Shown here piece by piece: positions 12,413 through 54,281 of a stretch of 64,000 bases of DNA. The DNA comes from Micropterix aruncella. Lineage: Eukaryota > Arthropoda > Insecta > Lepidoptera > Micropterigidae. The notes beneath the pieces are model-generated. The model had not been told where the DNA came from. It did not search any database and worked only from the letters and a program-made list of their open reading frames with translations. The position numbers and the translations under genes were made by a program. The stretch lies in contig OX155980.1 in the NCBI GenBank assembly GCA_944548615.1, positions 55,824,420 through 55,888,419 on the forward strand, in the 5' to 3' direction. Position 1 is the first letter of the stretch, and each line of letters begins with the position of its first letter.

Positions 12413-13342
12413 ATAATAATAATAATAATAATAATGCTTTATTTAAGAGAAAGTAGTACAAAAATTATGTCTTAAAAACTACCCAACTAGGTTAATGCCC
12501 GTACTAGGGTAGATTCTTTTCTTTTAAATTAAGATGCGCACGTAATTTTATACTGCAATTATAGAACTATGGTGATATTTACATGTTTATATAATATTAA
12601 ACATTATACATATATTATTCTCATTTATATATAAATATATACATTTACCTACTTGTATTATTTACATACTATTATTATTTACATACATTTGCATTTACAT
12701 ACATGTATTTATTAGTAATATATAATTGTAATATTAAATTAAATTGATAACGTCGTTTTAAACGAGGATATGTGTAATAATTTCAGCTACCTTTTCCCTG
12801 CCGGTCTCAAACAGCCACAAAGTAAGTTTTCCCTTTTTCATATGTAAGCTTTTGCATTGTTTTAACTTATCCTGAAAGTAATTGTGGAGTTTAGGAGCTA
12901 CACAACTAAAGTGCCTTTGCGCAAATTTAGTTTTGGTTTTTTTAATTAAATGTTTTTCTGACGCGCAACCTCTAGTTAGAATCTTGTGGTCAGTGATGTT
13001 GTGTGTGTGCGGATTGTTGAGATAATAAAGTAGGGTTACTTTTGCATAAATCTGTCTAACGTCCAAAAGTCTCAGCTCTTTTGGTAGTTCGTTTGTTGGA
13101 TATCGATGTGGCTTTCTGGACATGACCCTCAGGAGAGCTTTTTGCGCTTTAACAAGCGGATCTAACGCCGAATCTGTAGAACCCCCCCATCCTAATATTC
13201 CATATGTAATCGTGCTATGGGCTAGCGCGTAGTAGACTTTAATGAGACCTCTTAACGGTAGAACATTTCTAAGGGCCTTAAAAGCAAAAATCAGCTTCCT
13301 GATTTTACCCGCAGTAATAAGTACGTGAGGATCCCACTTAGG
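12413..13342 (-). mobile_element. 5'-truncated LINE (CR1/Jockey-like) with ATT tail
   Basis: The minus-strand sense starts inside ORF2 (KWDPHVL), runs through the ORF2 end at 12758, a ~320-bp 3' UTR containing CCCTAGTACGGG and CCTAGTTGGG, and ends in (ATT)n at about 12411-12434. A short microsatellite 3' tail and 5' truncation are usual for this LINE group. The UTR motif resembles words at 29.4 kb and 61.0 kb. Confidence 0.82.
12758..13342 (-). pseudogene. LINE ORF2, C-terminal fragment
   Basis: About 195 residues are open on the minus strand, beginning WDPHVLITAGKIRKLIFAF. They include KVYYALAHSTITYGILGWGG and VKAQKALLRVMSRK, ending HILV. These match the region after the reverse transcriptase palm in CR1/Jockey-like ORF2 proteins (YxSYxxSxxxYGxxxWG, then LQKRxxRxI). 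The catalytic YADD region and the endonuclease are absent because of 5' truncation. The fragment itself has no stop or frameshift, which suggests a fairly young insertion. Confidence 0.8.
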
Positions 13343-26740: not shown

Positions 26741-26960
26741 TTAATAAAATTCTTTGAAAAGTTCTTGCAATGAATGCCTAGAACCTCGTCTGTATTTTGA
26801 CCGAAAACGCCCCTTTAGCAGCTCACATAGATTTACCTCAGCAGTACTTTCCCATAGCATTATACCACAAGACCTAATGCAATGGAAAAGTTTGAATCGC
26901 GCCTTTTCCATGTCAGTCAGCTGCATGATTTTCCTAAATACAAAGCTTACCAGGTAACCA
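26741..26960 (-). pseudogene. LINE ORF2 C-terminal remnant
   Basis: Minus-strand reading RKIMQLTDMEKARFKLFH, then SCGIMLWESTAEVN and SRHSLQELFKEF. It lines up with the intact ORF2 of this window (KIRQITDVDTARLVYF, SYGILLWG, RRDSLRELFKEI at 42.73-42.93 kb), so it is a decayed member of a closely related family. The stretch that should read LQKRAxRAIY has diverged. Confidence 0.78.
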
Positions 26961-27949
26961 GGTAACTTTGATATAGGAGGCGTTAAATTTCAGAAAGCGT
27001 TTTGTCTATACTTTTCATTTATAGACTAATGAATTATGGAGTTTAGTTCACAGGGCTATTCAACATAGAACATCAAAATATTGGGTTTAAAAACATAGTT
27101 TACTTATCAATATCCCGTCCATTTTTTTCCATGCAAACAAATTTGGTCTACCATTTTCTTCAAAATGCTTTTCTTTCAAATATTTTTTTTAATAGCGAAA
27201 TGCAATCAGTCTCATACATATGTGGCGAATATTGTTGCTGTGATTTTCAAAACGAAATTTGTCGCCTTTAAATTTATGGATAAAATTAATAATCAACAAT
27301 AGTACTTCATTTAAACACAATATAACATGATTAAAAATTAATTGTGAAATAATAACAACAGGAAATAATTTTCTTTATTATTAAAGAATCGTGTCCAAAT
27401 GAACCATCATCGATAAATCTTAAGTAATTGAAATTGTTTGAATACAAATATCACAACACTGATTTTTTTTTAAATATATTCAATTTTATATTAATTATTA
27501 CCTATCGAAACTCGCTTTCATAATTATCATTTTTGCAAATTATGCACGGAAAAAATACCTAAACTAAGTTTTAAATTGAGTTTTGTCCAATTGAAATTCC
27601 TTACAATTTAATACTTTTCATAAAATTTTATAAACTTTAATGTAATTTAACATTAAAATTATATTTAGTTTCTATTAGTATATTCCTAATATTTAGAAAA
27701 TATAGTAAACGAAAAAAAAATCTTAGTATTTGTTCTTCTTGGAATGTAGGCAAAATTTTTTTTTTCAACATTGAATTACAAAACGATATTTGTCCAGTTT
27801 CGAGTTTCGAGTAATACAAGAGAGAGGGCTATATGTTTTTCCAGTAAATTTTCTTTTAGACGACTAATTTTAAATATTGATGTTTAGTGCCCTGCAATTG
27901 TTTAGGTCCTTGTACCGTATTTGAGTCGAAAAATATTTATATGTACATA
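26961..27949. other. AT-rich interval between LINE remnants
   Basis: No gene. It may be sequence inserted into, or degraded from, the LINE copy whose parts lie on either side. Confidence 0.45.
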
Positions 27950-28330
27950 ATAGAAATGGGCCCTTTGGAATACCAATTTTGACAACAGATCCTGGTGATT
28001 GTACCTCATTAACGTCTACTTTATGTAACCTATCTCTTAAGTATGAAATAATTTCTTCTAGAGCTCTTTACCTCTTACTCAATAAGGTTAAGTTTGATCA
28101 AAGAATTTCGTGATCACGCATCAATTGCCTTTGAGAGATCAGAGAAAACATCAGTAGCACCCTGCGATCTCTTCCAAGCGCTAAACGTACGCTTGATCAG
28201 AGTACTCCGACGTCTATTGTGGAACTGCCTTTTGATACAACGAAATTGTTAGCTGTCCGTAGTTCAGACTTATTGAAATGGGAAGGAATCTATAATATTT
28301 ACAACCTGGCCTGATCCTTTGTAGTATGCC
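27950..28330 (-). pseudogene. LINE reverse transcriptase remnant
   Basis: Minus-strand reading gives NNFVVSKGSSTIDVGVL, FSAWKRSQGATDVFSDLSKAID, then in other frames SYLRDR-like text and VVKIGIPKG. These correspond to QFGFTKGRSTTDAGVAL, SAWNDSQDAIGIFCDLSKAFD and VKMGVPQGS of the intact LINE at 40.0-43.6 kb. Several frameshifts and stops make it inactive. Orientation and order fit the same original insertion as 26741-26960. Confidence 0.75.
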
Positions 28331-39325: not shown

Positions 39326-39726
39326 TACTAAGCCGTGGTTATTAGTAGACTGATCAACAGAAAGTAGACAATATAATATAGATCTATAGACAAACACGTA
39401 TGGGCATCAATATAACACCGATTGAGAGCGATATATTATCGTCCGTTACTTTTGTAACGCTTCCGTTAAGTGATTGATCAGCTGCTATTTCTAGCAGATT
39501 TCTTACAGAAAGATTTTTCCCAGATAGTACCGCCCGCACTTAAGGGGAAATGATTGATTGGAGTTGGCGCAGCTTCGCCTTCCAAATGATCCATTCAATA
39601 AATAACTAGATATTATTTTCGAGAAAGACCCAGAGGATGATAAGGTAGGTAATACCATTGATTATATAGGGTATTAGATTGTATATAATATTTATATTTG
39701 ATTGTAAATGTGTAAATTATTATTTT
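39326..39726. other. no gene recognised
   Basis: Unique-looking sequence between the 4-kb element and the direct repeat upstream of the LINE. Confidence 0.5.
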
Positions 39727-39815
39727 TTCAAATTGAAATTATGTTCATTACTAAATAAATGAAATTATAAAATAAATGAAAGGGCACTTATCTGGTCTGT
39801 GGCGACCAGGAGCGA
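39727..39815. repeat. 89-bp direct repeat, left copy
   Basis: Matches 43858-43946 with two differences. It contains a CTGGTC/GACCAG hairpin (39792-39797 with 39804-39809) just after CACTTAT. A related ACTTATCTGG word with its own small hairpin occurs at 51.61 and 52.07 kb next to (TA)n tracts. Confidence 0.88.
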
Positions 39816-40046
39816 ATCCACGCCTTTTTCTTTTTCTCTTCTTTCAGTGGTTGCGGTTTCCTACTGTGGTATTGGAACCTTTCTATTTTATCCTACAGTG
39901 GCAACACAACAATTCGAAAGATAAGATCAAAGTTGGAAAATAATAGGCGATTAGATATCTTAAAAACTAATGATTATTAAAAATGTGTATCAATATTTCG
40001 GCTAAGCCGTCGTCAAGATAAACGACAAGATAAAAGACACACTCAC

Positions 40047-40400
40047 ATGCTAAATACTAGTTTATACAATCTAGCCACTCAAAATGACATTTTGCTATTT
40101 TGCGACATAAATAAACTTAAATCAATGAGACTTAACTTAAAAAATAGATATGTTTTAAAAAAAAATCTGACAATATATGCTAAACTGATAGCAGATGATA
40201 TAAATACCCATATTACTCAAAATAAAAACCATAAATCTTATCAAAAGTATTCCCCTATTATTGTGGTAAAATATACTGCCGATATTGCAGAGTCGGCAAG
40301 CGCACGTAGTAAAAGTGACACCACTGCGCTGATACCATGCGACGCATCAGAAACAAATTCTGAAGACCTTATACTCATGAATGCACCTCATTTAAACTAA
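40047..40400 (+). CDS. LINE ORF1 (short or 5'-truncated)
   Basis: 117 residues from a true ATG to TAA at 40398-40400, basic in the first half (lysine/arginine/asparagine-rich) and acidic near the end. I see no CCHC zinc knuckle and no esterase motif, both common in ORF1 of these LINEs, so this is probably a shortened ORF1. It should bind RNA if functional, but the sequence does not prove that. Its last codons are CAT TTA AAC TAA, which place a TTTAAAC heptamer in the correct frame to slip into ORF2. The frame stays open upstream of the ATG only to a stop at 39978. Confidence 0.65.
   Translation: MLNTSLYNLATQNDILLFCDINKLKSMRLNLKNRYVLKKNLTIYAKLIADDINTHITQNKNHKSYQKYSPIIVVKYTADIAESASARSKSDTTALIPCDASETNSEDLILMNAPHLN
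40391..40397 (+). promoter_or_regulatory. TTTAAAC, candidate -1 ribosomal frameshift site
   Basis: In the ORF1 frame the bases are T TTA AAC followed immediately by the TAA stop. Slipping back one base gives TTT AAA CTA and continues in the ORF2 frame without a stop. This is the X XXY YYZ form known from coronaviruses and many other -1 frameshift signals. A perfect 8-bp stem (40429-40436 with 40466-40473) lies 31 bases downstream, further than the usual spacer. Confidence 0.65.
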
Positions 40401-43249
40401 AGTCTAAGACAAATGGAAAGCTATTACATCTAGTTCATCAGAACATACAGGGCTTTCTACGCAAAGAACTAGAGGTCGAGTTATTTCTTGAAACAAGCAA
40501 ATTGGACATCCTTTGTTTAACGGAACATTTTCTTAAAAACTACCAAATTCTAAATTTTGCTAATTATGACGTGGTTAGTGCCTTCTACCGTCAGACCACT
40601 ACTCAAGGCGGTTCTTTGATATTAGTTCAGAAGAATATAAAAGCAAGAGAACGCAAAGACATTTCTATACTCTCAGTAGAATGTAAAATAGAAATATCAT
40701 GTGTTGAGTTAGAGAGACACATCGTGGTTTGCGTCTACAGGCCACCATACAATCATAGCTTTTCCTGCTTTGAATTAGTTTTGGAAGATGTAATGAAAAT
40801 TCTTTCCAAAAGCAAAAAAAATATTGTAATTTGTGGAGACTTTAATACAAACCTTTTAGAAGATTCATCATTCAAAACCAGACTAATTTGTTTATTTAAA
40901 TCATTTAATTTACATAATATTTTTAATGAGCCAACCAGAATTACATCAAAAACAGCAACCTGTATAGATAACATCTTCTGCAATTGTGAGTTTACTGGTC
41001 AGAAGATTATAAACTGTCTCCAGTCTGACCACAGTGGACAGTCTGTTTTACTCCCATGTTTCCTTAATCATAATAAAATTAAAATCAAGAAACGTATTAT
41101 AAATAAAAATCTATTAGAAAGATACAAAACAGCAATAAAAGAAAAGCTCTCCTTAAACATTTTTAAAACAAATGACCCTAATAAGTTTTATGGGGAAATG
41201 TTTTCAATTTTGGTATCTGAATTTGATAAAAAAATTAAACTTAAAGAGCGTCAATTAGAACCCAAATTCAAGTTCACTGACTGGGCGACTAAAGGCATTC
41301 GTAATAGCAGAGGTCGGTTATTTGAATTGTATGATGAAAAGTCATACAATCAAAGTTTGCACTTTGTAAACTACGTAAAGACATATTCAAGGATTTTTAA
41401 GAAAGTATGTTTAGTAGCTAAATCAAATTTCATAAAGCGCAAGGTTATTAATTCAGAAAATAAAGCTAAAACTGTTTGGAAAATTATAAATAGTGAGACC
41501 AAAAAAAAAACAGCATTCAATAAACAGATCACATTAAAGACATCTCATGGTAAAGTTAGTTCAGACAAGGAAGTGGCACAAGAATTTGAAACGTTCTTCA
41601 CAAACATCCCATTAAAAACTACTGGACATCTGAGTTCCTCCATTTCAATAGCAAACAATCTACTAAAGTCAAATATTGGCCGATGTGAGGCTGTATTTGA
41701 TTTTAAGCAAATAGATTCCGAGACGATAGTCAAAGCGTTCCACGTTTTGAAACTAAAAAACACTGAGGATTTTTGGGGTATGTCTGTTAAGTTTTGTGAA
41801 TATATCATAGACGACATTGCGCCGTATCTAGTAACAATCCTAAACGGATGCATTGAAAATGGCGTGTTTCCGGATTTACTAAAGTGTAGCAAGGTTGTAC
41901 CCTTGTTCAAATCTGGCGATACAGAAGATCCTGGAAATTACAGACCGGTGTCTATATTGCCAGTGCTAAGCAAAATATTTGAAAAGATTTTATTAAACCA
42001 AATGCTTCCTCATTTCAACTTAAACCGATTACTTCATGATCAGCAATTTGGCTTCACCAAAGGACGTTCCACCACAGATGCTGGGGTAGCGCTACTACAA
42101 AACATCTATAGTGCCTGGAATGACTCGCAGGATGCTATTGGAATATTCTGTGACTTATCTAAGGCTTTTGACTGCGTAGATCATAATACGTTATTACTAA
42201 AACTAGATCACTACGGTATAAGGGGTAAATCTCTTAGCTTGCTTAAATCATATTTGACAGATAGAATCCAAAAAGTACAGATAAATGAGACAAAGTCACA
42301 AGGATCGCAAGTTAAAATGGGCGTACCACAGGGTTCTATACTGGGACCGTTTCTGTTTTTAGTATACCTAAATGACCTGCCCTTTATGGTACAGAGTCTA
42401 ACTAAAATCACACTATTTGCGGATGACACCTCGCTAATTTTCAAGCTAAACAAACAAAATACAAATGTGGACGAAATAAATATTGCCCTTGCACAGATTC
42501 ATGACTGGTTTGCTTCTAACAATCTGGTTTTAAATTCAAATAAAACTAAATGTATTCGTTTTTCGCTTTCTAACAGCAGAAATAACTTTAATGTTACTCT
42601 AAATAATGAAAAATTAGACTTCATAGAACAGACCGTATTCTTGGGAATCACGTTGGATTCTAAACTAAAATGGGATTCACACATTACCAAACTGTCAACA
42701 AGGCTTAGTTCAGCCGCATATGCTGTTATGAAAATCCGTCAAATTACCGATGTTGATACTGCGAGGCTAGTATATTTCTCTTATTTCCACAGTATTATGT
42801 CTTACGGCATCTTACTGTGGGGACAAGCTGCAAGTATGCCCTCAATCTTTATTCTACAAAAACGGGCGGTTAGAGCCATATACAACTTGCGCAGACGTGA
42901 TTCCCTAAGAGAATTATTCAAAGAAATTAACATTCTTACTGTACCTAGTCAATACATATTTGAAAACATTATGCATGCACGAAAAAATATATCTCATTAT
43001 TCAAAAAACTGTGACAATCACAAATACAATACTAGAAATAAAAATAAATATATAGTGACAAAATTTAGACTAAGTAAGATAAGCAATTGTTTCATGGGAA
43101 ACTGTATACGTTTCTATAATAAAATTCCAGAGGACATAAAGGGTCTATCAGACACTCAGTTTAGAAGTAAAATTAAACATATTCTATGTAAGAAGGCTTA
43201 CTACAAAGTAGTAGATTTTATTAATGATATTGATTTTTTTTTGGAATGA
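40391..43249 (+). CDS. LINE ORF2: APE-type endonuclease plus reverse transcriptase
   Basis: Drives target-primed reverse transcription: the endonuclease nicks chromosomal DNA and the RT copies the element RNA. The frame is open from 40364 to the TGA at 43247-43249. The endonuclease starts at once (HQNIQG, DILCLTEHF with the catalytic Glu, YRPP, ICGDFNTN at 40829-40849, SDHSGQ at 41024). RT blocks follow: VPLFKSGD, NYRPVSILPVLSKIFEKI, QFGFTKGRSTTDA, FCDLSKAFDCVDH, GVPQGSILGP, and the catalytic LFADDTSLI at 42413. The C-terminal blocks are SYGILLWG and LQKRAVRAIYNL. There is no in-frame ATG before 40793, inside the endonuclease, so I take the start as the frameshift point in TTTAAAC. The length (about 950 residues) is normal for the family. 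Confidence 0.9.
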   Translation, partial: FKLKSKTNGKLLHLVHQNIQGFLRKELEVELFLETSKLDILCLTEHFLKNYQILNFANYDVVSAFYRQTTTQGGSLILVQKNIKARERKDISILSVECKIEISCVELERHIVVCVYRPPYNHSFSCFELVLEDVMKILSKSKKNIVICGDFNTNLLEDSSFKTRLICLFKSFNLHNIFNEPTRITSKTATCIDNIFCNCEFTGQKIINCLQSDHSGQSVLLPCFLNHNKIKIKKRIINKNLLERYKTAIKEKLSLNIFKTNDPNKFYGEMFSILVSEFDKKIKLKERQLEPKFKFTDWATKGIRNSRGRLFELYDEKSYNQSLHFVNYVKTYSRIFKKVCLVAKSNFIKRKVINSENKAKTVWKIINSETKKKTAFNKQITLKTSHGKVSSDKEVAQEFETFFTNIPLKTTGHLSSSISIANNLLKSNIGRCEAVFDFKQIDSETIVKAFHVLKLKNTEDFWGMSVKFCEYIIDDIAPYLVTILNGCIENGVFPDLLKCSKVVPLFKSGDTEDPGNYRPVSILPVLSKIFEKILLNQMLPHFNLNRLLHDQQFGFTKGRSTTDAGVALLQNIYSAWNDSQDAIGIFCDLSKAFDCVDHNTLLLKLDHYGIRGKSLSLLKSYLTDRIQKVQINETKSQGSQVKMGVPQGSILGPFLFLVYLNDLPFMVQSLTKITLFADDTSLIFKLNKQNTNVDEINIALAQIHDWFASNNLVLNSNKTKCIRFSLSNSRNNFNVTLNNEKLDFIEQTVFLGITLDSKLKWDSHITKLSTRLSSAAYAVMKIRQITDVDTARLVYFSYFHSIMSYGILLWGQAASMPSIFILQKRAVRAIYNLRRRDSLRELFKEINILTVPSQYIFENIMHARKNISHYSKNCDNHKYNTRNKNKYIVTKFRLSKISNCFMGNCIRFYNKIPEDIKGLSDTQFRSKIKHILCKKAYYKVVDFINDIDFFLE

Positions 43250-43526: not shown

Positions 43527-43562
43527 ATTTTGATTTTGATTTTGATTTGATTTTGATTTAAA
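43527..43562 (+). repeat. LINE 3' microsatellite tail (TTTTGAT)n
   Basis: Imperfect TTTTGAT/TTTGAT units end the LINE, ten bases after AATAAA. This is the usual kind of tail for CR1-like elements, instead of poly(A). Confidence 0.85.
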
Positions 43563-43600: not shown

Positions 43601-44221
<621 letters not shown>

Positions 44222-45810: not shown

Positions 45811-47213
45811 CAGGTTTTTTTATCAAATCTACTAAAATTTTCTAAATAAGTATCAATAGCGTTGGTCGCAATTTTGTGCGGTAGCACAAAAACTGGCGCC
45901 TCAACGATGGGCCAAAATTTTTTTTTAACCTAATTCTTTCTAAAAAGTAAAAATTTTCCTGCCCAGTATTATTTTTCATAATATCAGAATTTCTGTAAAA
46001 TAAAGTGTACCTCAAATATAAAATCTACCCAGTAAAATATAAAATCATACCCCAGTAAAATACATTCCGGCGGTTCCATACGGAAACCGGTATTTCTTAG
46101 CTGCAATTCGTCTAAACATTATTTCCAAAACAGTATACTTCGAAGGATGGAACAAAATTCTATAAGATAATCATAAGTGTTAAATTTTTTATAGTGCTAT
46201 CGCCAAAATAGGGAATTTTTCTTTTATATATAATACGGCAAAAGTACAAAGTTGAAAATAAAATGATATAACCCTATTATACAAAATAATTTGATATAAC
46301 GATATTTTTCATATGCCTACGTTAATAATCGTGTTCTGTAGTACAAATAAAATGTCTATGTAAAGTTCGATTAAAATAAAACTCGCAGCGGAGAAAGTGG
46401 ACGAGGGCTCGAATAAAAATAAACCGGTTCCGAGATAACGAAATCGAGAACGCACAACGCACGGCGCACACAGCGAAGTTCTACCGTCAAACGACGCATC
46501 GAATATTACCGATTAGGATAGCGACAACGGAATAATAAAATTACAGGAATGCGAGCGTACAACGAGTAGGTACATACCGGCAACCGCGGAAAATAAAATA
46601 CAGCGAGCGCTCTGGCCAAATAACACCGTCATGAATAATATGCACGCATAGGACATTGGAATGATAAATAAAAAGTAGATATGCCGCACTTTGATGATAA
46701 AATAAATCAATAAATAATATTAGTAAGAGTAAAGGGGTAAATAATAAAGGAACAGTGTATAGGAATATTACTTAAAAACAAATAATAAGTTGCTATAAAA
46801 ATAAAATAATAGAATAAAATTTTTTTCGGAAATTAATCTTGTTAAATAAGGGGGACTTTAGAATTTTAAAATTAGTTGAGAAAATTAAGACTTAAGGGGA
46901 CTTACAACATTAATTTTTTTTTAAATTTCAATTTCTTTTTAAGAATTGAGGATTTGGGAAATACTTAGAAACTTCGAATATTGAAACTAAGGATGAAGGT
47001 GTTGTAGTAAATTTGTTTCTTGTACATTTATTTTTAATATTGTCTATATTTGGGACTTAGACGTTTGGACTTATGTAATTTTTCACAGGTGTCTACATTT
47101 TGATTTTTAAAAATTTTTTTTTGACTTTCACATACTCATTGCTTAATTTAACTGTAGCAAGGTAAGATATTTGTATTAGGGCCATAAAGGTGTTTCGCTT
47201 TTCTTCGGAATTA
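45811..47213 (+). other. retrotransposon leader
   Basis: About 1.4 kb between the primer site and gag. A CpG-rich part lies near 46380-46580, the rest is AT-rich. No open frame of note. Confidence 0.5.
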
Positions 47214-48421
<1,208 letters not shown>

Positions 48422-49189
48422 TGGGTCATTCCGCCATTTCGTGCAAATCGCCTGTAAACTCTAATATCAGACTGCATACCGCATTTAGAAAAAAAGTTTT
48501 ATTGAAATATATTTACTCTAAGTGTGAGGAAGAAGGCTCTTTAGGAAATCTAATTCTAAAGTACATAGTTTTTTTTTAATCTTAAAAATACATGGAAAAA
48601 TTTCATTCCTCTCCGCCTCCAAACCACAAACTTCAAATTCGTCGATGTGTTGTACCTAAACTTGCCAACACATACTTAGTTGTCTTAGCATACATGAAAG
48701 ATAAGGTAAACACACTATAGGTATTAAAATATAAGACATCTACAATTACATATAAACAAAATATTTCTACTTTTGTCTTTGGCAACAGAGATTCTATCAT
48801 TTCCCGCGCAAAAAAAAAATAAGTATATCTTGCTCCGCAACAGGAGCCCAAGCTTCTACCATAGATCATTATGCTCCTCATTGGTCAGTCTGTCGCGTAA
48901 GCTCTGAAGGCTGTGTGAATAGTCGCCGTGTAAAAAGATATTTAAGTTCTTTCTCTTCATTTCGAGTTTGTCACCGTTCATCAGTCATTACCATCCATCC
49001 AAGTCAAACAGTAAGTACAAAACAAAAAAGCTAAGTTTATATCCACTTTGGTGTGTTTTGGTAGGGTCTTTTCGTCCACTGTTATTGAAACTTGTAGGTC
49101 ATCAATCATGCGAAATATGCAGAATAAACTTCCATTATTTCATTCCACTCCTTGTCATTATCTTCCTTACCTTCCAAATTTATGTAGGA

Positions 49190-52520: not shown

Positions 52521-54281
52521 TTAATTTTGCCTATTCAGACCGGGACCCTTGCAAGCGCCTAAAATATTTATAAAAGCCAACTCCCAAGATTTAACGTCTC
52601 TTTCTTTAGCGTTATCGCCAAGGCACTTAATAATTTTTACTTTAAAACAATTATCAAAAGTTAAATTGTGTGCCTTAGCATGCAATGCTATTGGAAGTTG
52701 ACTTTCATTGCCTACGCTGGCCCTGTGATTATTTAACCTAATGCTAAGAGGTGTAGTTGTTTCCCCAATATAAAATGCATTGCAGGTCTGGCAAAGTAAT
52801 TGATATACAATATTTTTTGAAATGCAACTACTATTAAAAGGAACTCTGTAACTGTTGGGAGTGTTAGGACTAGTAAAATAAATGCTTCGATCTAATAAAG
52901 GACATGTTTTACAACGTGATCGACCGCAAGGCTGTAGGCCCAAATTTTTGTTAGTACTAAGATAATTTCGATTATTTTTATTAAGTATTGATTTTAAATT
53001 AGGAGGTTTTCGAAATGATAAAATTGGTGGTATATCTAATAAACCTTTGGTTGATGGGTCGTTAGCTATAATAGGGAATAAATCTGCTAAAATTGGTCGC
53101 AGTTTCTCAGTGCCAGGAAAATAAGTAGTACTTAGAAAGATTTTATTTTGATTTAAATTTGACACCAATTTAGGTTTAGGTGAAAATTTTGTTTCGGAAT
53201 TTATTATATTTTTATCTAACAAAGAGGCAGGATAATTTCTTTCTATTAGTGATTTTTTAAGATTAGAAAGGTACTTATCTAGATTTTCTTTATTATTAAT
53301 TAAACGGTGTCCGCGAATGGACATTGAATATGGAATTGACTTTTTGGTATGAAACGGATGACAGCTATCGAAATGTAGGTATTGCTCTTTGTTTGTAGGT
53401 TTTATATGAATTGCAGTTTTAATGGTGCCTTCGGATAGAGTTAGATCAACGTCTAAGAATGTAATTTGATTTTCTGATATAGTGTATGTAAAATCTAAGG
53501 GTCCGAAATTATTTAAATCTGTAAGGAAGTCAGTGAGTGTGTCATGTCCATGTGGCCAAAACAATATAATATCATCAATAAACCTATACCACATTAGTGG
53601 TTGTAAATTTTGAGTAAGAAGAAATTTATTTTCTAATAACCCCATGAAAAGATTCGCATAAGAAGGAGCCATTCTTGTTCCCATTGCTGTACCTTTAATT
53701 TGGAGATAAAATTCATCCTCAAAAGAAAAAGCATTCTTAGTGAGGACGAATTCAGCCAACTTACAAAGAAAATTTGTAGAAGGAATTTGGGGGCTGGGCC
53801 TTTGATTAAGGTAATGGGAAATCGCTTCTAAGCCTAAATCATGGGGAATATTAGTATAAAGAGAGACAGCGTCAATTGTAACAAGTAATAAGTTGTCAGT
53901 CTTAGGAGTTGTGGTATTTTTTAGAATCTCGATGAAATGGTAACTATCTTTAATGTGTGACTTTAGATTTTTTACAAATGGCTGTAGAAAGTAATCGACA
54001 AAAGCTGAAATTCTTTCTGTGGGTGAGTTAAAACTAGCTACTATCGGTCTTCCTGGATTATTAGGTTTATGAATTTTTGGCAATAAGTAAAAATTTGGTG
54101 TTCTGATAGGGTTAGGAATTAAAGTGTTAACATCTTCATCTGATAATTTTTCAATGGTTTTTTGTTGTTCAATATATTTTTTTATTGTATTAGCAAATTT
54201 TGATTCGGATCACTATATAATTTTTTATAGGAAGTTTCGTCTCTGAGTTGCCTCAAACCTTCAGCTACATAGTCTGTTTTA
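52521..54281 (-). pseudogene. Penelope-like RT core plus GIY-YIG endonuclease (3' part)
   Basis: Copies element RNA and cuts the target with a GIY-YIG nuclease rather than an APE nuclease. In order on the minus strand: NKTDYVAEGLRQLRDE; a one-base deletion near 54204; DEDVNTLIPNP; LLPKIHKPNNPGRPIVA; VTIDAVSLYTNIPHD (catalytic Asp); KGTAMGTRMAPSYANLFMG; WYRFIDDIILFW (catalytic Asp pair); a CxxxxCxxC cluster (CGRSRCKTC); and the nuclease NAFYIGETTTPLSIRLNNHR with the later WELAFI Glu. It ends at a stop at 52521. From 54083 the frame has 520 intact residues. The single-base deletion and the insertion upstream make the copy inactive. Confidence 0.9.

Follow-up and report, generated by a model that had tools for sequence, protein, structure and literature searches.

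A candidate -1 frameshifting signal conserved at the ORF1/ORF2 junction of LINEs in the lepidopteran Micropterix aruncella

According to the accessible portions of several papers, the two open reading frames (ORFs) of long interspersed nuclear elements (LINEs) such as SART1 and human L1 are coupled, ORF2 expression being tied to ORF1 through overlapping UAAUG stop-start codons in SART1 and across a 63-nt spacer with an ORF2 AUG in L1, and reinitiation or other unconventional initiation has been proposed for ORF2 of animal LINEs (PMC2881922, PMC5972666, PMC5009743). In non-LTR elements, -1 frameshifting is already known from Dictyostelium, where ORF2 of TRE5-A and TRE3-A needs such a shift in the available part of a review (PMC5911963); these elements come from another host group and have a zinc-finger ORF2, and the likeness to the case described here rests on the stated -1 frameshift, not on the sequence of a slip site. 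The gag gene of the Drosophila non-LTR element HeT-A likewise requires a frameshift, going by the section of the source available (PMC5009743), but there the shift lies within gag and no reverse transcriptase (RT) is encoded, the likeness being one of description only. Here we describe a LINE contained in a 64,000-nucleotide stretch of the Micropterix aruncella genome (contig OX155980.1, positions 55,824,420 to 55,888,419 of the forward strand; hereafter the window) that has two ORFs, as do SART1 and L1. Sequence comparisons lead us to propose, with a probability of about 0.8, that the coupling of these ORFs relies on programmed -1 ribosomal frameshifting at a T TTA AAY heptamer located directly before the ORF1 stop.

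The first-pass annotation had placed a T TTA AAC heptamer in the correct phase right before the ORF1 stop and had claimed that a -1 slip would enter the ORF2 frame at once and continue through HQNIQG into the endonuclease. Both points agree with the sequence. The features of the junction, in which B and C denote two diverged families compared below, are the following:

40391-40397, plus strand: slippery heptamer TTTAAAC in the phase T TTA AAC, a heptamer type common to families B (TTTAAAT) and C (TTTAAAC)
40398-40400, plus strand: ORF1 stop TAA, directly after the heptamer
40364-43249, plus strand: ORF2 frame, entered by a -1 slip at 40391 and encoding an endonuclease and an RT, with its stop at 43247-43249

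The ORF1 frame ends ATG AAT GCA CCT CAT TTA AAC TAA (40377-40400, plus strand), and the same letters read TTT AAA CTA in the ORF2 frame, which is open for 961 codons; the overlap of the two ORFs that permits a -1 slip spans 37 nt in this copy. The ORF2 product matches Exo_endo_phos (PF03372, APE endonuclease) and RVT_1 (PF00078, reverse transcriptase), a combination that fits an APE-type LINE. The heptamer is of the type found in coronavirus ORF1a/1b and other viral X_XXY_YYZ sites. Both UUUAAAC and UUUAAAU are named as endogenous slip sites in the accessible part of one study (PMC7297798).

Copies of the element, which we call family A, were sought in the same 1.08-Gb genome, yielding 33 matches to the junction region, all of which were fetched and 29 of which span the heptamer. 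TTTAAAC-TAA is present in 27 of these 29 copies (the window copy included), the exceptions being one TTTAAAA-TAA and one TGTAAAC-TAA. Because the copies are 95-99.6% identical to one another, this sharing proves little and was set aside as evidence of selection on the heptamer; at the sequence level, the high identity is a sign of a young element and not of such selection. The window copy itself is defined by two further features:

40025-40400, plus strand: 3' part of ORF1, 5'-truncated, 117 codons from the ATG at 40047, ending in NAPHLN before the stop
43528-43559, plus strand: short terminal repeats (TTTTGATTTTGATTTTGATTTG...) at the 3' end of the element

The copy is truncated near 40025-40047, and its ORF1 comprises the last approximately 117 codons only. 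Shared sequence upstream of 40025 that is missing here is present in many other copies, and at four other loci (L020, L023, L026, L032) the full ORF1 has 528 codons from its Met. The LINE insertion is flanked by a direct repeat of 128 nt, 87% identical, at window positions 39688-39815 and 43819-43946.

The weight of the evidence comes, within the limits of sequence comparison, from families B and C and not from this single site. In family B, ORF1 ends TCT TTA AAT TAG with ORF2 in the -1 frame (4 of 4 fetched copies agree), and in family C, found with the ORF2 relative P0011 as query, it ends TTT AAT TTA AAC TAA (the junction is reached by seven of the nine fetched copies, all identical there). 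All three families thus end ORF1 in LN before the stop, on TTTAAAC-TAA in A, TTTAAAT-TAG in B and TTTAAAC-TAA in C, although they have diverged widely: ORF1 of family A is 28% identical to that of B and 21% to that of C (the latter partial, with 311 codons fetched), and the ORF2 of A is 52.7% identical over 946 columns to that of a chimeric lineage described below, which is B's ORF2. The contrast between the junction and its upstream flank is sharp. The heptamer and stop match at 8, 10 and 8 of 10 positions (A-B, A-C and B-C, respectively), the differences being limited to the last heptamer base (C/T) and to TAA/TAG, whereas the 20 nt leading up to the heptamer agree at 6, 8 and 6 of 20, and the 60 bases upstream at best at 19-22 of 60. 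The block TTTAAAY-stop has therefore been kept in three families while the letters upstream changed almost completely, and the heptamer, stop and phase are conserved in relatives of the window element, as frameshift coupling would predict. Recent exchange of the whole junction among the families was considered and rejected, since the flanks of A differ from those of B and C on both sides; B and C share 15 of 20 nt in the stretch starting 13 nt after the stop. A fourth family was sought by an endonuclease pattern, but the five places found, all of which were read, had no endonuclease frame upstream and looked like chance or degenerate matches.

These comparisons, together with genome-wide counts, bear on the possibility that the heptamer is a chance occurrence in a decaying AT-rich copy. 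Of the 3567 positions of the element, 41 begin an XXXYYYZ heptamer and 2 begin TTTAAAC. Across the whole window, on both strands, there are 7990 stop trinucleotides, and the seven bases preceding them form an XXXYYYZ heptamer in 101 cases and TTTAAAY in 15; a slip site before a stop, taken alone, is about a 1% event. Such an occurrence, to which the 5' truncation of the window copy would also lend itself, is nevertheless barely credible when three families, with upstream flanks diverged to the extent given above, share the heptamer type, its phase and its place ahead of the stop. Moreover, the pattern TTTAAAYTAR-n5-AAGACAA has 236 matches in the genome against 2 for a reversed control pattern. 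The junction block also lies upstream of 32 of 33 ORF2 copies at a family-specific distance, these copies having been collected by protein searches (best 46-48 rows each, contigs C1-C19); the lone copy without it, L061, is unlike other C copies upstream of AAGACAA.

The reading frames around the junction point the same way. ORF1 and ORF2 lie in different frames, so that there is no single fused frame and 2A (NPGP) coupling within one does not apply. Upstream of the heptamer the ORF2 frame is open for 27, 24 and 0 nt in A, B and C; in family C the codon before TTT is TAA in this frame, and with the frame closed immediately upstream a slip at the heptamer is the one way into ORF2. Stop readthrough was rejected: beyond the stop, the ORF1 frame runs for 10 (A), 4 (B) and 4 (C) codons before it closes again, and readthrough cannot reach ORF2. 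No AUG in the ORF2 frame overlaps or adjoins the ORF1 stop in any of the three families, unlike in SART1 and L1, the nearest being 80 nt past the stop (C copy L059). In family A, the first Met codon of the ORF2 frame comes 134 codons past the heptamer, inside the endonuclease; the corresponding distances are 54 codons in B and 29 and 102 in the C copies L059 and L060. Canonical features of -1 frameshifting are present together: X XXY YYZ in the zero-frame phase, a -1 ORF open through the site, a short overlap and conservation across families. At the sequence level, the frameshift coupling suggested by the first-pass annotation is thus supported with respect to other copies, start codons and frames, and its function we infer.

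Under programmed frameshifting, most ribosomes would terminate at the ORF1 stop and release ORF1p, and a minority would slip one base back, with tRNA-Leu and tRNA-Asn re-paired on UUU AAA. Having bypassed the stop, the slipped ribosomes would synthesize an ORF1p-ORF2p fusion, an arrangement akin to Gag-Pol. All of this, the slip and its frequency, the fusion product and any element stimulating it, we infer from the frames, the phase, the absence of a nearby ORF2-frame AUG in A and in the C copy L060, and the conservation in three families.

Protein relatives of ORF2 were surveyed among the best 120 of 553 found, of which the four with named organisms (Plutella, Euphydryas, Choristoneura and Parnassius) are all from lepidopterans. 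Three proteins in this set (P0011, P0030 and P0038) have FKL within their first eight residues, the expected product of TTT AAA YTR in the ORF2 frame, which lends support to the frame at the junction. In all, 12 listed proteins have FK[LF] in the first 100 residues, and the remaining nine were set aside as the motif is internal; one of these nine, P0084, is distantly related and carries FKLD at residue 31. Other listed relatives have predicted starts elsewhere, mostly downstream of the junction. A search with the N-terminus of P0038 returned P0038 itself as the sole candidate, and the ORF1 tail compared with the protein database gave 28 candidates, none at E <= 10.

Several observations weigh against frameshifting, or against its being the only mode in use. 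The comparison at the DNA level covers three families in one genome. In family B, an in-frame AUG lies 155 nt past the stop, immediately ahead of the endonuclease, and the C copy L059 has an in-frame Met at residue 29. The former would suit translation of ORF2 from a later internal AUG or by some other internal entry, with the junction unused. We consider this very improbable: in B, four out-of-frame AUGs lie between the ORF1 stop and the in-frame one, in A a protein started at the first AUG would begin within the endonuclease, and the conserved heptamer would be left unexplained.

Furthermore, nine of the best 120 relatives have predicted starts MTTE, MTKE, MTTG or MTAE, which align by eye with KT of A, B and C, and some members of the clade may therefore have an AUG a few codons beyond the place of the heptamer and reinitiate there; this argues against a uniform mode. 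In its general form, termination-reinitiation in the manner of SART1 and L1 would have ribosomes terminate at the ORF1 stop and resume translation close by in the frame of ORF2. The restart codon would be non-AUG in A and C, relatives perhaps using an AUG, and TTTAAAYTAR-n5-AAGACAA would be the reinitiation signal. This mode would accommodate the closeness of stop and entry point in all three families, the conservation of AAGACAA beyond the heptamer and, by eye, the Met in some relatives where A, B and C have Lys (FKLRGMTKA in P0038, besides the starts just listed), and the accessible text of two papers describes or proposes it for SART1 and L1 (PMC2881922, PMC5972666). Against it stand the lack of an ORF2-frame AUG near the stop and, in all three families, the absence of UGGGA from the 150 nt to each side. 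UGGGA is motif 1 of the termination upstream ribosome-binding site (TURBS). Nor does reinitiation account for the retention of X XXY YYZ, precisely phased, ahead of the stop, or for the closure of the C ORF2 frame up to the heptamer, and we regard it as an unlikely explanation for these three families.

The RNA downstream of the heptamer provides the remaining counterpoints to frameshifting. Two features are relevant:

40406-40412, plus strand: AAGACAA, a second conserved block 5 nt past the stop, common to B and C
40414-40459, plus strand: weak candidate hairpin downstream of the heptamer, its z ranging from -0.78 to -2.20 with the choice of folded stretch

The eight bases beginning with AAGACAA match at 7, 7 and 8 of 8 (A-B, A-C, B-C), so that this block (with equivalents in L055 and L059) is about as conserved as the heptamer, which simple slippage does not explain; it may be a sequence-type stimulator or reflect a coding constraint. 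Canonical -1 frameshifting usually involves a stimulatory RNA structure about 5-9 nt downstream of the slip site. Folding of 68-100 nt downstream gave z-scores of -0.78, -0.89 and -2.20 for A, +0.89 and -0.15 for B, and +0.53 and 0.00 for C, with no stimulatory structure consistent across the families and no hairpin in B or C as strong as the weak one of A (pseudoknots not modelled). The main stems begin approximately 15-16 nt past the heptamer, so that, unlike in coronavirus-type sites, there is no strong stem at the usual distance. In addition, one high-throughput study found, as far as its accessible part goes, that the final base of the heptamer could not be swapped freely at some sites (PMC7297798), and TTTAAAC and TTTAAAT need therefore not be equal.

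The junction has also moved between families. Family B is abundant, with 27 of 40 scored places representing B without the A part, and at 13 loci (L026-L036, L039 and L041; e.g., L032:4325-7438) a chimera combines the A 5' part, through the equivalent of window position 40497, with a short filler and B ORF2. The chimera joins the B sequence just after B's own ORF1 stop, such that the junction of A is fused in frame to the ORF2 of B. The breakpoint is one and the same in 13 of 13 loci and therefore reflects one 5' capture that was later amplified. Twelve of the 13 have the heptamer: seven are open for 1038 codons, one is cut by the locus end and four are broken.

With regard to the class of the element, Pfam gave no match above the cut-off for ORF1, and the best hit to solved structures searched by ORF1 sequence had E 0.12. 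The N-terminal part of ORF1 looks coiled-coil-like by eye. The C-terminal domain of family B ORF1 was modelled from a three-row alignment (mean predicted local distance difference test score, pLDDT, 54.8; blocks of residues 51-180 at 56-89), and at this mean pLDDT of 54.8 its best structural matches are SGNH enzymes (OatA and PAF acetylhydrolase; best E 1.6e-5), so that ORF1 probably carries an SGNH fold. We take the element to be probably of the CR1/L2 kind. With this probable fold behind a coiled-coil-like stretch, ORF1 would resemble that of the zebrafish ZfL2-1 esterase class in CR1/L2 groups (PMC3905857, accessible part), which comes from a vertebrate host, whereas the present element is from an insect. 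Within the Jockey superfamily, esterase ORF1s are limited to vertebrate groups in the available text of one paper (PMC4120745); the accessible part of PMC3905857, however, speaks of esterase-type ORF1 elements in many animal phyla, and the novelty of an insect esterase ORF1 is accordingly limited. CR1 Zenon is, like the present LINE, an abundant lepidopteran element, but is listed at approximately 3.3-3.5 kb in the portion of the source at hand (PMC6740152), which, by listed length alone, falls short of an element whose ORF1 has 528 codons and whose ORF2 has 952.

Viral contigs searched with ORF2 and with its alignment gave 1 and 14 stretches matching the pattern, none of them a relative, and the plasmid and phage collections held 37 and 2 records matching ORF2, all of them with less than 80% of the query covered; the 20 plasmid rows listed are for the most part annotated as RTs of group II introns. 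Nine ORF2-related loci in prokaryote records are probably contamination: the closest, L001, with 51% identity, matches only from residue 181 on, and the two loci that were read, the distant relatives L003:1-600 and L004:1-600, are LINE-like single fused ORFs with NPGP 2A-like motifs.

Other sequences resembling mobile elements were noted in the window. Fragments of other LINE RTs, 26-42% identical to this ORF2, lie on the minus strand at 12968-13339, 26750-26974 and 27939-28280, and a 562-codon ORF at 52521-54209 (minus strand) has RT-like and GIY-YIG-like (YIGE...) parts and appears Penelope-like by eye. An ORF at 47166-48464 resembles, by eye, an LTR-element gag and leads into one of the long (TA)n tracts that the window contains.

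A literature search that reached few subscription journals uncovered no earlier description of a canonical slip site at the ORF1/ORF2 junction of any animal LINE. In a broader scenario, which we rate as an even bet on the sequence comparisons presented here, a lepidopteran LINE clade would make its endonuclease and RT as a retrovirus-like ORF1-ORF2 fusion through T TTA AAY-stop, helped by AAGACAA and not by a strong structure; the junction would be a portable module, as in the 5' capture of A onto B's ORF2, and members would have moved between frameshifting and AUG reinitiation only a few codons apart. The route to the scarce second LINE protein is unsettled for most clades, and insect LINEs that are young, abundant and share a conserved slip site offer a simple case amenable to reporter assays. 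If the proposal is true, ORF1p and ORF2p would exist partly as a fusion, and the mode of coupling would seem to change within one clade.

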